From: Jannaschia helgolandensis
GTDB taxonomy: Bacteria; Pseudomonadota; Alphaproteobacteria; Rhodobacterales; Rhodobacteraceae
Direction: 5' to 3'
DNA length: 64,000 bases
NCBI RefSeq assembly: GCF_900109285.1
Contig: NZ_FNZQ01000002.1
Coordinates: 62,001 to 126,000, forward strand
Both the position numbers and the translations under genes were made by a program. This document shows positions 1,921 to 6,882 of the stretch, in pieces. The notes below the pieces were generated by a model. It worked only from the letters and a program-made list of their open reading frames with translations. It was not told the DNA's origin and searched no databases. Positions within the stretch are counted from its first letter, which is position 1. Every line of letters begins with the position of its first letter.

Positions 1921-2688
1921 TTAAGGATCATACATAAAAAACTGATTTTGAATTGATATTTTCAATATCGCCTGAGCTGTCGTTTCGACATTCAGTTCTT
2001 TGCGCGCCAGTCTCAGGTGTTTCTCGATCGTCGCAGGCGATTTTTTCAGCAGGACTGCTATATCCTGGACTGTCTTGCCATCGGCTATCAGTTCCAGAAC
2101 CTCGCGCTGGCGATTCGTCAGATTCCGCCCGTGCAGACCATAGGGCAGGGACAGGAACGTCAGATGTGTAACGTGGCAGATCAACTCGATCTCGTTGCCG
2201 CTGCTCGCCCAGATCGCATCCGCTTCTGCTTGCGTCATGGTCGTGCTGCCCAGCCCGATCCCGTGACCTGCGCGGACGGAATGGCGCGGGAAGCTGATAC
2301 CATAGCCCGCTACGATGCCATGCTTGCGATTGAATTCGACCACGCGCATGACTTCGGGAGGCAATCGGCCTTCGGAGGCATCACGGGCAATTTCACCCCA
2401 GGACAAGGTGCCCACGTTCTGCATAGCCCAGCGGACCATGGGGGCGTCGCGAAACAGGCCGCCTTCGAGATAGGGGTCGGTGAATTCCTTGGGATAGTTG
2501 GTCAGGATGAATGCATCCCTGAGATCGCCTGTCGTGTGATCCGTCCGAAACCGTGTGGCCGCATAAAGAACACGGTCGAACCCGTAACCGGCCATACGAT
2601 CCTTTAGCTTGGACCAGGCATTCTCGATATCCGGCTGAATCATCAGATCGAGTAGAAACTGCTCGGTATCGGTGGCACGCTTTGACAT
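1921..2688 (-). CDS. LuxR-family regulator with autoinducer-binding-type domain
   Basis: Predicted transcription factor of 255 residues. Roughly residues 20-165 resemble the autoinducer-binding fold: a YPKEF...PYLE segment, a D-A-P-x-V stretch, a conserved-looking LSW and a GxGISFP strand. Residues about 185-250 are a clear LuxR/GerE helix-turn-helix (LTNRQREVLELIADGKTVQDIA, then SPATIEKH). The first pocket aromatic of canonical LuxR proteins appears to be Phe rather than Trp, so the ligand may not be an acyl-homoserine lactone. No luxI-type synthase is in the window, making it a LuxR 'solo' here. It is divergent from the dehalogenase gene and is its obvious candidate regulator. The gene looks AT-richer than its neighbours. 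Confidence 0.85.
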   Translation of the reverse strand: MSKRATDTEQFLLDLMIQPDIENAWSKLKDRMAGYGFDRVLYAATRFRTDHTTGDLRDAFILTNYPKEFTDPYLEGGLFRDAPMVRWAMQNVGTLSWGEIARDASEGRLPPEVMRVVEFNRKHGIVAGYGISFPRHSVRAGHGIGLGSTTMTQAEADAIWASSGNEIELICHVTHLTFLSLPYGLHGRNLTNRQREVLELIADGKTVQDIAVLLKKSPATIEKHLRLARKELNVETTAQAILKISIQNQFFMYDP

Positions 2689-2750
2689 TCAAACAAACTC
2701 GTTATCAAAGAAATTCACCTTGGACGACCGTTCCACCCGTGTCGAGCCGA

Positions 2751-2781
2751 CCCTGCCTTCAGGGTTGCCCTGATCCAGGGC
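2751..2781. promoter_or_regulatory. tandem dyad, candidate operator between luxR-type gene and rdh
   Basis: Two adjacent dyads share the same arms. CCCTG (2751-2755) and CAGGG (2760-2764) are separated by 4 bases. GCCCTG (2767-2772) and CAGGGC (2776-2781) are separated by ATC. Their centres are about 16-17 bp apart. They lie in the 165-base divergent region between the regulator start and the proposed dehalogenase start. This is where a LuxR dimer would be expected to bind, but no binding evidence exists. Confidence 0.45.
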
Positions 2782-2853
2782 AGGCTATTCGTGCGCATCA
2801 GAGTTCGGGGTTGCGTATTCCAGACCATCCGGCGGAGATATGCCACCGACAGT

Positions 2854-5800
2854 ATGGACCCGCACCTTATGACGCTCCGCTTCTTTTCCGATGCCAATCG
2901 TCCGGTTCACATGGGACCGTATCCCTCGGAGCGCTTGGCGCGCAGCGATGCGATGCCTGATCTGTCGACTGTCCCTTCGGCCCGCCCGCTGATCTTCCGC
3001 AAGAGCGATGCAGCGTCGATCATCAATGCGATGGCCGAACATCAGGCCATGCTGGACGCGATCCGCGACGGTCCGGTCAACCCGATTCTGGCTGGCGCAC
3101 CAACCGATGTGAAAAATCGTTCCAACCACCTGAAGGCATTTGGCTATTTTTGTGATGCGGCTGTCGTCGGGGTCTGTCGCCTGCCACGAGCGGCGTTGTT
3201 GAAACAGCCGCATTCGAACCCTGATGTTGCCCGGTTGGCCAGAGATCTGAAGACCCGGCAGATCAAGACGCTGGCCTCTGGCATCGACACGATCATGGCC
3301 GACCTAAGGGACTCGCTTGAAGCCGCGCCCACGACCATCGACGATCATACTCATGCGATCGTCTTTCTGTACGAGAACCCGCGCGATCCGGAAAAGAACG
3401 AGGTCGGCACCGAATGGATTGCCGACGCGCAGGCCCATCGCGCGGGGTTGCTGGCTTCGGAAACTGCCATCGTCGTGGCCAATTACCTGCGTTTGCTGGG
3501 ATATGCCGCGCGTGGACATACAGTGTCGTCATCGGATGTCGATCTGAACCGGCTTGCGGTTGCGGCAGGTCTAGCGGTGGTGCGGGACGGGGGGCTGACC
3601 CACCCCTACATCGGCTCTCGTTTCGGACTGGCCGCCGTTACAACGACGTTCAAGATCGCGCCGGACCAACCGCTGGCCAGTGAGCAGCCAGCTTCGGCAC
3701 ACGGTCTGGCGTGGAAGGTCGGGGCAGGGTTCGCCAAGAACGCATTCAACGCGGTGCCATTTGCCAAGCGCCGCTTTGTCGACGGCGCGCATCCGTTCGA
3801 AACGCTGCGCCGCGTCGACACGCCCACGACCTATATAGACGAGCCGAATGTCGCCCGCGTGCCCAAGCGCGCCGACATGTTCGCCCGTGCGCAATTCGGC
3901 GACATGGGCAAACCGTTGCAGGAGGCCTCGAAGGGCGGGCATTACGTTCGCAAGGCCGCTCCGTCGATGGCGCAGCGTCGGGCCCTGGCGGCATTCTTAT
4001 TGCTGCAAGACGGGGACTCAGCGGTCGAAAAGGCACGTCTGGACCCACAGGCCGCCGCAGATCTGGTCAAGGCGACGGGGTATTGGCTGGGGGTCGATGC
4101 CATCGGGATCAGTCGCTGTCCGGACTGGGCATGGTATAGTCATGACGCGCGCGGCGACGTGATCGACCCGCCGCACGATCAGGCGATCAGCATGATCATC
4201 GACCAGGGCTACGAGACGATGGAGGGCGCGTCCGGCGACGACTGGATCAGCGTTGCGCAGTCAATGCGTGCCTATCTGCGGTTTTCACTGTTGGGCGGGG
4301 TGATCGCCAGGCAAATCCGCAATCTGGGCTACAAAGCCAAGGCCCATTCGGTGATGGACGGCGAGGTTCTGCAGCCGCCGCTGTTGCTTCTGTCCGGTCT
4401 GGGCGAGGTCAGCCGCATCGGCGAGGTGATCCTGAACCCGTTTCTGGGCCCGCGCCTTAAATCGGGCGTCGTCACGACAGACCTGCCGATGGCGCATGAC
4501 AAGCCGATTGATTTCGGTCTGCAGACGTTTTGCGATAGCTGCAACAAATGCGCGCGGGAATGCCCGTCGGGGGCAATCACAGCCGGTCCGAAGCTGATGT
4601 TCAACGGCTATGAGATCTGGAAATCCGACAGCCAGAAATGCGCCACGTATCGGATTACGACCGAGGGTGGCGCGATGTGCGGCCGGTGCATGAAGACCTG
4701 CCCGTGGAATCTGGAGGGCGTGTTCAAGGAAAAGCCGTTTCGCTGGGCTGCGATGAACGTGCCGAAACTGGCACCTGCGTTGGCAAGACTGGACGATGCG
4801 GTCGGAAACGGCGGCCTGAACCCGATCAAGAAATGGTGGTGGGATCTGGAGCTGGACCACGACGGCGGATACCGCTCGACAGACAAGCCGGTCAACGAAC
4901 GCTCGCTGCAACGCGATCTGGAGCTGAAATACAAGGATCAGACTCTGGCCGTCTATCCCGCGCCTCTGGCCCCGCATCCATGGCCGTATCCGTTTCCGAT
5001 GGATCGGGAGGCGGGGATCGCGGCCTATCAGGCGATGGTAACGGCGCAGGAATACAAGTCCCTGCTGGAGCGGGATGAGCGCGGGCATTTGCACATCTAT
5101 GACACCGGAGGCGACAGCCCGGTCATTCAGGTCGAAGTCGCGGCGGCAGAGGTCACGGCCGAGGGTGTGATGTCATACACGTTTCGGTCGCCAGACGGCG
5201 GCGACCTGCCGGAATGGCAGGCCGGCGCGCATCTCGATATCGTCGTAGCGCCCGAGTTCCTGCGGCAATATTCGATGTGCGGCGACCCCGCCGACCGCAG
5301 CACCTATCGCATTGGTGTGCTGCGCGAGGACGGTGGGCGAGGGGGCTCGAAGCTGATGCACCGGATTTTCACGCCGGGGCGACGTGTGTTCGTGTCGCGT
5401 CCCATCAACCATTTTGCGCTGGATCCTGAAGCATCACATACCGTTCTGATGGGCGGTGGCATCGGCATTACTCCGATGATTGCCATGGCACATGAGCTTT
5501 ATAGCGCAGGCCGTTGTTTCGAAATGCATTACTCTGGAAGGTCGAGGGCCGCCATGGGGTTCTTGGACGACATCGCTGGCGCACCATGGGCAAATCGCGC
5601 GACATTGCACGTCACCGACGAAGGATCACGCGCCGATTTTGGAAGGATCCTGAGCGGTCTGCCGGAAGGCGCACATGTTTATACCTGCGGCGCGGAGCCA
5701 TACATGGCTGCGGTCATGGCGGAGGCAGAGGCTACCGGCATCCCGGAAGCGGCGCGGCACCTGGAATATTTCTCGGTGCCGGAGCAGGTCGAATACGAGA

Positions 5801-6069
5801 ACCACGACTTCATACTCAGACTTGTGCGGTCAGGTCGAGAGTTGCACGTTCCCGCAGATAGCAGCGCGACAGACGTGTTGACCAGGAATGGCATACCGAT
5901 CGACGTGAAATGTTCCGATGGGCTATGCGGGGTCTGTAAATGCGGGCTGGTATCTGGTGATGTCGAGCATCGGGATTACGTATTGTCCAAGGCACAGCGA
6001 GAGACAACGATCATCCTGTGCCAAAGCCGGGCGACGGAGCGTGACGGTGTGGTGGAAATCGATCTCTGA
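2854..6069 (+). CDS. self-sufficient cobalamin-dependent reductive dehalogenase fused to FMN/NAD/2Fe-2S reductase
   Basis: Predicted cytoplasmic enzyme of 1071 residues from the ATG at 2854; an in-frame GTG at 2791 and ATG at 2869 are alternatives, and none has a good ribosome site. Residues 1 to about 700 match the catabolic RdhA type: an N-terminal degenerate copy of the B12-binding fold, the B12 domain, and two 4Fe-4S motifs (C560-x2-C563-x2-C566-x3-C570P; C596-x12-C609-x2-C612-x3-C616P). Y428 in AWYSHD is the likely catalytic Tyr; K494/K496 and R534 are candidate partners. Residues about 750-1071 are a phthalate-dioxygenase-reductase-like module: flavin motif R804QYS, nucleotide motif GGGIGITPM from 867, and plant-type 2Fe-2S C1020, C1025, C1028 and C1056. 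There is no Tat signal and no RdhB-type anchor gene. The architecture is that of Comamonas BhbA and the Nitratireductor NpRdhA group. Substrate is unknown, probably a halogenated aromatic. Confidence 0.9.
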   Translation: MDPHLMTLRFFSDANRPVHMGPYPSERLARSDAMPDLSTVPSARPLIFRKSDAASIINAMAEHQAMLDAIRDGPVNPILAGAPTDVKNRSNHLKAFGYFCDAAVVGVCRLPRAALLKQPHSNPDVARLARDLKTRQIKTLASGIDTIMADLRDSLEAAPTTIDDHTHAIVFLYENPRDPEKNEVGTEWIADAQAHRAGLLASETAIVVANYLRLLGYAARGHTVSSSDVDLNRLAVAAGLAVVRDGGLTHPYIGSRFGLAAVTTTFKIAPDQPLASEQPASAHGLAWKVGAGFAKNAFNAVPFAKRRFVDGAHPFETLRRVDTPTTYIDEPNVARVPKRADMFARAQFGDMGKPLQEASKGGHYVRKAAPSMAQRRALAAFLLLQDGDSAVEKARLDPQAAADLVKATGYWLGVDAIGISRCPDWAWYSHDARGDVIDPPHDQAISMIIDQGYETMEGASGDDWISVAQSMRAYLRFSLLGGVIARQIRNLGYKAKAHSVMDGEVLQPPLLLLSGLGEVSRIGEVILNPFLGPRLKSGVVTTDLPMAHDKPIDFGLQTFCDSCNKCARECPSGAITAGPKLMFNGYEIWKSDSQKCATYRITTEGGAMCGRCMKTCPWNLEGVFKEKPFRWAAMNVPKLAPALARLDDAVGNGGLNPIKKWWWDLELDHDGGYRSTDKPVNERSLQRDLELKYKDQTLAVYPAPLAPHPWPYPFPMDREAGIAAYQAMVTAQEYKSLLERDERGHLHIYDTGGDSPVIQVEVAAAEVTAEGVMSYTFRSPDGGDLPEWQAGAHLDIVVAPEFLRQYSMCGDPADRSTYRIGVLREDGGRGGSKLMHRIFTPGRRVFVSRPINHFALDPEASHTVLMGGGIGITPMIAMAHELYSAGRCFEMHYSGRSRAAMGFLDDIAGAPWANRATLHVTDEGSRADFGRILSGLPEGAHVYTCGAEPYMAAVMAEAEATGIPEAARHLEYFSVPEQVEYENHDFILRLVRSGRELHVPADSSATDVLTRNGIPIDVKCSDGLCGVCKCGLVSGDVEHRDYVLSKAQRETTIILCQSRATERDGVVEIDL

Positions 6070-6091
6070 GCAACCTCACACAATATCGCAT

Positions 6092-6132
6092 GGCATTATT
6101 TTACATAATCTTGGTTATCGGATAATTATGCC
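6092..6132. terminator. imperfect inverted repeat between convergent rdh and phoB
   Basis: GGCATTATT (6092-6100) and AATTATGCC (6124-6132) pair with one mismatch, with an AT-rich interior that can form further pairs. It sits between the converging ends of the dehalogenase gene and phoB in a 126-base AT-rich gap. It is a plausible weak bidirectional terminator. Confidence 0.35.
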
Positions 6133-6195
6133 TTGGTTCAGGCAGGCTTCGCAGTGCTTTAAAGTCACGGTTCAAGTTACTGAAAATGAAGATTA

Positions 6196-6882
6196 CTACC
6201 CTAGCGCGTAACCTGCCCCACGCACTGTGCGGATCGGGTCGTCGACACCTGTCGCTGTGCGCAGCGCCTTGCGCAATCGCCCAACATGCACGTCAACGGT
6301 CCGGCTGTCGACATAGATGTCGCGGCCCCAGACCCGGTCCAGAAGCTGGTCTCGCGACCAGACACGGCCTGGGCGTTCCATGAATGTTGTCAGCAGGCGA
6401 AATTCGGTCGGACCCAGATGCAGCTCGACGCCGTCGCGGAACACACGGTGCTGGACGGTATCCAACGTGACGTCCGCGAATTCCAGCTTTTCACCGACAG
6501 ACGCCGGTCGGACCCGACGCAGCTGCGTGCGGATGCGGGCCATGAGTTCGACGACGGAATAGGGTTTCACGACGTAATCATCCGCGCCGGTTTCCAGCCC
6601 CCTCACCCGGTCGACTTCTTCCGATCTGGCCGAGATCATGATGACCGGAATGCCGCGTGTTTCAGCGGTGGATTTCAAACGGCGGCAGACTTCGATGCCG
6701 GTCACCTCGGGTAACATCCAGTCCAGCAAAATCAGGTCCGGATTATCTTCGCGCGCAAGCTCCAGCGCGGCATCACCGGAGGTCGCCTGACGAACGTCGA
6801 ACCCTTCCGCTTCGAGGTTATAGACAAGCACCTCGCGCTGCGGGGCTTCGTCTTCGACCACAAGGACCGAGGGCTGGGTCAC
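6196..6882 (-). CDS. phoB: phosphate regulon response regulator PhoB
   Basis: OmpR/PhoB-type response regulator of 228 residues. The receiver domain has the acidic pair E10-D11, the phospho-acceptor D54 (LILLDWMLP) and K106 (DYVVKPYS). The C-terminal winged helix (about 130-225) contains LGPTEFRLLTTF and DSRTVDVHVGRLRKAL, both characteristic of PhoB. It is the last gene of the phosphate block, and its ATG overlaps the phoU stop by 4 bases, so translation is coupled. When phosphorylated by PhoR it should bind the Pho box ahead of pstS. Confidence 0.95.
   Translation of the reverse strand: MTQPSVLVVEDEAPQREVLVYNLEAEGFDVRQATSGDAALELAREDNPDLILLDWMLPEVTGIEVCRRLKSTAETRGIPVIMISARSEEVDRVRGLETGADDYVVKPYSVVELMARIRTQLRRVRPASVGEKLEFADVTLDTVQHRVFRDGVELHLGPTEFRLLTTFMERPGRVWSRDQLLDRVWGRDIYVDSRTVDVHVGRLRKALRTATGVDDPIRTVRGAGYALG

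Follow-up and report, generated by a model that had tools for sequence, protein, structure and literature searches.

At the junction between a LuxR-type regulator gene and a phoB-like gene, Jannaschia helgolandensis carries a long open frame, here called rdh, and the locus raises the question of which enzyme this frame encodes, what it could do for its host and how it came to lie there. The window, i.e. the whole stretch of 64,000 nucleotides that was analysed, places rdh on contig 11 of a draft genome (3.56 Mb, 14 contigs). The frame (2854–6069, forward strand) encodes 1071 residues and is open throughout without an internal stop, so the single intact frame claimed in a preliminary description of this DNA is confirmed. 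An alternative longer frame with a GTG start opens at 2791 and would add 21 residues. Since the start of many relatives corresponds to M6 or lies at most two residues away from it, the true start of rdh is probably 2854 or 2869.

The preliminary description had interpreted the product as a self-sufficient, catabolic-type reductive dehalogenase with neither a Tat signal nor an anchor gene, and this assignment proved correct. By eye, no Tat signal is seen in the 1071-residue protein, whose first RR pair occurs at residue 306; the extension encoded by the 2791 frame holds RRR, with no hydrophobic stretch after it by eye. Directly adjoining rdh there is no membrane anchor gene, the neighbours being the LuxR-type and the phoB-like gene. 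A respiratory reductive dehalogenase was therefore rejected, since both the Tat signal and the RdhB anchor were not seen.

The enzyme class follows from profile and structure matches. The NCBIfam model for reductive dehalogenases (TIGR02486, RDH), a search proposed in the preliminary description, matches with 197 bits compared to a curated cut-off of 160.35. The best match among solved structures is NpRdhA (4RAS, 3.1e-165), in two stretches covering residues 8–111 and 163–747. Pfam detects Fer2 (PF00111) at the C-terminus and dicluster 4Fe-4S domains at residues 560–619; none of the 12 Pfam hits of the protein is a dehalogenase family. The C-terminal module matches the reductase domains of self-sufficient P450 enzymes (6KBH, 5.4e-61; 6LAA, 3.4e-55); over residues 757–1067 it also matches phthalate dioxygenase reductase (2PIA, 5.5e-53). 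It contains the motifs RQYS (804–807) and GGGIGITP (867–874) as well as C1020, C1025, C1028 and C1056, cysteines that do not vary in any of the 31 rows of alignment A2, a set of chosen relatives of which two (L105 and L086) are near-identical. These matches and motifs confirm the oxidoreductase module that had been read from the letters before, with FMN, NAD(P) and [2Fe-2S] as its predicted cofactors. An AlphaFold model based on 29 close sequences has a mean pLDDT of 62.2, with most blocks between residues 411 and 750 below 60, and, being poor in the catalytic core, gives nothing on the active site.

Table 1. Features of the rdh locus (positions in the window; residues refer to the 1071-residue protein).
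Feature	Position	Strand	Evidence
rdh, self-sufficient catabolic reductive dehalogenase, 1071 aa	2854–6069	+	TIGR02486 over cut-off; NpRdhA 3.1e-165; 50% identity to BhbA
Vestigial N-terminal B12-fold copy, residues ~78–275	3085–3678	+	Profile-profile alignment of both halves (hhalign), E 9e-24; two controls fail
Functional B12-binding core, residues ~390–553, with Y474 and K536	4021–4512	+	NpRdhA alignment, residue positions, alignment A2, hhalign
Two [4Fe-4S] motifs, residues 560–617, R600 within the second	4531–4704	+	Pfam, motifs, alignment A2
Module resembling phthalate dioxygenase reductase, residues 757–1071, with FMN, NAD(P) and C-terminal [2Fe-2S] parts	5122–6066	+	6KBH, 2PIA, PF00111, motifs
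LuxR-type regulator (autoinducer-binding and GerE domains), outside the system, divergent	1921–2688	-	Pfam; beside tsf in 16/20 genus genomes
phoB-like response regulator, outside the system, convergent; starts a pho/pst-like cluster	6196–6882	-	named by eye

The B12 fold is duplicated, as had been proposed. In a profile-profile comparison with hhalign, using profiles cut from alignment A2 (residues 60–290 and 385–560), the N-terminal copy and the core align over 162 columns with 28% identity (E 9e-24), and both control pairings, in which each half was compared to the reductase module, fail (E 0.1 and 0.4). At the positions matching Y474 and K536 of the core the N-terminal copy has glycine. 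Lacking the catalytic Tyr and Lys, it thus resembles the vestigial domain of NpRdhA. Downstream of the core both predicted iron-sulfur motifs of the RdhA type were found, C560-x2-C563-x2-C566-x3-C570-P and C596-x12-C609-x2-C612-x3-C616-P, and their eight cysteines are identical in 31 of 31 rows of A2.

In the alignment to 4RAS, mapped by hand, Y426, K488 and R552 of NpRdhA correspond to Y474, K536 and R600, and F291, S422 and M423 to F343, S470 and M471. All six residues are identical in every one of the 31 A2 rows, BhbA among them, and the same six are reported to be conserved between NpRdhA and JtRdhA (PMC10463259). A catalytic Tyr/Lys/Arg set is therefore present, but the residues named for it in the preliminary description (Y428, K494, K496 and R534) are not the NpRdhA equivalents: Y428 and R534 are conserved in A2, yet they are other residues than the catalytic ones, K494 is variable, and position 496 is Lys or Thr.

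Among characterised enzymes, BhbA from Comamonas sp. 7D-2 (plasmid pBHB, WP_015585978) shares the domain order and is 50% identical in an alignment that covers 99% of the query, with 64% in the B12 and Fe-S core (residues 400–720). The bhbA gene belongs to a plasmid cluster with genes for a ring-cleavage dioxygenase, a transporter component and a porin, whereas rdh in the window is without such neighbours. NpRdhA from Nitratireductor pacificus (4RAS, 6ZXU) likewise combines a vestigial and a functional B12 domain with two [4Fe-4S] clusters and Y426/K488/R552. In contrast to the protein described here, it has no fused reductase, and its gene cluster is described as encoding the ferredoxin and the oxidoreductase separately (PMC10463259). 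JtRdhA from the marine Jhaorihella thermophila is, as here, a single-polypeptide RdhA-PDOR fusion, described with no Tat signal, a duplicated B12 fold and the same six active-site residues (PMC10463259). Ros_A3X954 from the marine roseobacter Roseobacter sp. MED193 is reported as a Tat-less catabolic debrominase that converts 2,6-dibromophenol to 2-bromophenol. The positions of its Fe-S motifs (283–294 and 337–345) suggest a short protein without a fused module, and this apparently unfused enzyme is reported to be oxygen-sensitive (PMC13101508). Taken together, we assign the rdh protein with a probability of about 0.9 to the soluble single-polypeptide reductive dehalogenases of the BhbA/JtRdhA type, and it clearly belongs to an enzyme type that has been characterised before.

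By analogy to JtRdhA and NpRdhA, from which chemistry, substrate class, cofactor chain and residue roles are transferred, FMN would take electrons from NAD(P)H. Single electrons would then reach base-off cob(II)alamin by way of the C-terminal [2Fe-2S] cluster and both [4Fe-4S] clusters. Once reduced, the cobalt would take an ortho halide, most likely bromide or iodide, off a halogenated phenol. Y474 would give the proton, K536 would set up Y474, and R600 would lie near the substrate. Purified JtRdhA works in air and, with NADPH, debrominates and deiodinates ortho-halophenols, while chlorinated ones inhibit; it also accepts 3-bromo-4-hydroxyphenylacetate and 3,5-dibromo-4-hydroxybenzoate (PMC10463259). 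Most likely, the rdh protein removes ortho bromine or iodine from halophenols at the expense of NAD(P)H, although we hold the exact substrate with less confidence than the enzyme class. On the example of JtRdhA the enzyme would also be oxygen-tolerant, and chlorinated substrates are doubtful because JtRdhA does not turn them over. The host gene for CobN (1553 bits, cut-off 822) fits its own cobalamin synthesis, and a supply of the cofactor is plausible.

For the fate of the product, the host genome was searched for PobA, PcaH, HpaB, homogentisate dioxygenase and the LigB family. PobA is not over its cut-off in the host genome, and PcaH and HpaB have no match there; control genomes did match. 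Growth on the dehalogenated product is unproven in this host because none of the three was found. The term "catabolic" is thus appropriate for the enzyme type, but catabolic use in the host is uncertain. Homogentisate dioxygenase is present (633.9 bits, cut-off 510.75), and there is one match to the LigB family (86.1 bits, cut-off 26.3), a broad family that E. coli matches too, so this match says little for or against a 4,5-cleavage enzyme. Within the genus, PobA exceeds its cut-off in 14 of 20 genomes, the host being among the other six. These are 9 of 12 rdh-bearing and 5 of 8 rdh-free genomes with PobA, and there is no tight linkage between rdh and PobA across the genus.

A small subset of loci has pobA directly 3' of rdh. 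In L044, L049, L061 and L062, i.e. in all four loci tested, the gene adjacent to rdh on the downstream side passes the model for 4-hydroxybenzoate 3-monooxygenase, and the two genes form a minimal debromination-hydroxylation unit. In Nitratireductor OM-1 pobA is annotated near rdh. This gene order would fit 4-hydroxybenzoate as the product in those hosts.

Alternatively, the substrate could be a halotyrosine or a halogenated breakdown product of tyrosine; once dehalogenated, it would enter the homogentisate route instead of 4-hydroxybenzoate catabolism. The homogentisate dioxygenase of the host, next to the missing PobA, PcaH and HpaB, is consistent with this, as is the use of 3-bromo-4-hydroxyphenylacetate by JtRdhA (PMC10463259). 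We nevertheless consider it unlikely, as homogentisate dioxygenase is a common gene of little weight alone, no genomic link between rdh and a tyrosine gene was seen in the host, pobA is paired with rdh in the four relatives mentioned above, and the pocket residues match hydroxybenzoate-acting enzymes. In the cell, the enzyme probably dehalogenates natural brominated phenols, either for detoxification or to feed a pathway; this is the least certain step of our interpretation.

No conserved partner of rdh was found, and apart from the pobA loci the gene stands alone. Clusters of neighbouring frames over 104 sequences comprised rdh itself (92), a loose ABC-ATPase cluster in 20 loci, at varying positions, and otherwise at most 9 loci each. 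When 75 genes adjoining rdh were scanned with Pfam, none of the 25 families listed (of 82) occurred in more than five. This set includes five downstream genes (L088–L092) among the upstream ones and leaves out loci where the upstream frame is missing or shorter than about 100 residues; gene calls of neighbours, codon-based or by longest frame, are approximate. A conserved operon was hence rejected.

The LuxR-type gene was also considered as a partner, since the two genes are divergent neighbours only 165 bp apart and the host has two matches over cut-off to LuxI-type synthases, both away from the LuxR locus. Rdh might then be part of a quorum-controlled dehalogenase unit regulated by the adjacent LuxR gene. 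However, 16 of the 20 genus genomes have LuxR next to tsf, inspection of eight congeners showed no rdh at the LuxR site (in L153 the contig ends about 0.7 kb past LuxR), and a GerE domain occurs in only 3 of the 75 neighbours scanned, the window LuxR included. Such a unit is therefore highly improbable. A QueG (epoxyqueuosine reductase) relative fused to a reductase and acting on tRNA, the placement that the preliminary description had set against its own reading, can practically be dismissed: QueG and RdhA share a class III B12 fold (PMC10463259) and TIGR00276 gives a weak hit, but with 28.9 bits this hit is far below the cut-off of 200 whereas the RDH model is passed, the Tyr/Lys/Arg set of NpRdhA is complete, and a separate 381-aa frame (C5:500023–500367; RDH match 35.5 bits) may be the host's own QueG.

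Congeners give clues to the history of the locus. In the congener G009 (locus L150) LuxR and the phoB-like gene are separated by about 170 bp with no rdh between them; in the window the distance is 3507 bp and rdh occupies the gap. Both flanks of the rdh site are about 74% identical at the nucleotide level between the two genomes. The rdh copies of congeners sit at loci other than the luxR-phoB site. In a quick tree (89 rows, short search, SH-aLRT only) they fall into four groups, one of them beside Sulfitobacter, and the group of the window copy has a modest support of 82; the tree was calculated without L085, the nearest congener copy (78% identical), and without L055, L063, L071, L074, L095 and L105. 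The empty site in G009, the scattered congener copies and the groups in the tree favour repeated single-gene transfer. Most likely, rdh entered the luxR-phoB junction as a single-gene gain; for the direction at this site we infer gain in the window rather than loss in G009.

The junction itself (2689–6195 in the window) is variable. It is empty in L150, contains rdh in the window, a cluster that starts close to a homogentisate-dioxygenase-like frame in L151 (by eye) and ABC-transporter-like genes in L155 and L157 (named by eye). Possibly, it is an insertion hot spot.

In four congeners a 19-nt element, TTACATAATnnnGGTTATC, with up to three mismatches, precedes the start of LuxR by about 80–90 bp. 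The window has this element at 6101–6119, just past the rdh stop and at a distance of 3.4 kb from LuxR, which looks as though the insertion of rdh had separated LuxR from an element upstream of it. The element was detected in seven of nine loci in a search without shuffled control (L150, position 3287; L153, 2472; L156, 2199; L157, 2210; L151, 3293; L155, 7972; and the window) and was not detected in L152 and L154; in L151 and L155 it is far from LuxR, too. Flanking repeats as marks of an insertion were not found at the rdh borders. All repeats detected lie inside rdh: direct repeats of 14 nt in three pairs, and two pairs of inverted repeats, one of 23 nt and one of 16 nt.

Enzymes of this layout had been described beforehand as a small group, which is not borne out by their distribution. 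A scan of GTDB contigs gave 268 stretches encoding relatives. The best 80 of these 268 are 67–77% identical by best segment and belong mostly to Rhodobacterales and Hyphomicrobiales, with six from Granulosicoccus/Granulosicoccaceae and one from a Flavobacteriales MAG. Within the genus, 12 of 20 genomes, host included, have a strong match (split in two pieces in G012). Two congeners have rdh proteins that agree in every residue with those of Jannaschia marina and an uncultured Jannaschia. In the family of the host, 79 of 198 genomes drawn evenly from a larger group, again including the host, match with E <= 1e-180, two of them (G118 and G121) covering the query partly. One genome, G158, has two strong matches, one of them partial (161–1071); the other 78 have one each at this threshold. 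On plasmids, eight records reach E <= 1e-100, among them Comamonas pBHB, which carries BhbA (50%), Nitratireductor OM-1 (51%), Ruegeria TM1040 (71%) and Jannaschia M317 (76%). As to the family, a Rhodobacteraceae-like host had been suggested; the order Rhodobacterales is right, but the taxonomy line of one record puts Jannaschia in Roseobacteraceae. Putative bhbA homologues are reported to be widely distributed in the Roseobacter clade (PMC13101508), and layout, chemistry and occurrence in marine roseobacters are already in print (PMC10463259; PMC13101508).

Tentatively, rdh can be regarded as a free-standing, serially transferred one-gene trait of mostly marine Rhodobacterales, which might dehalogenate halophenols (or halotyrosine) without a dedicated ring-degradation partner. 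It would be selected for detoxification or salvage of natural organobromines and not for growth, and bromine cycling would be common in the family (about two fifths of the genera sampled); this broader scenario is possible, but less likely than not. The gene itself adds one member to a known enzyme type, and the more useful result is its spread across the family: the occurrence in 79 of 198 genomes, in varied neighbourhoods, points to aerobic debromination as a frequent accessory trait of the group. Since NAD(P)H is all that a self-sufficient dehalogenase requires and JtRdhA is active in air (PMC10463259), each natural homologue is a candidate for the clean-up of brominated phenols.
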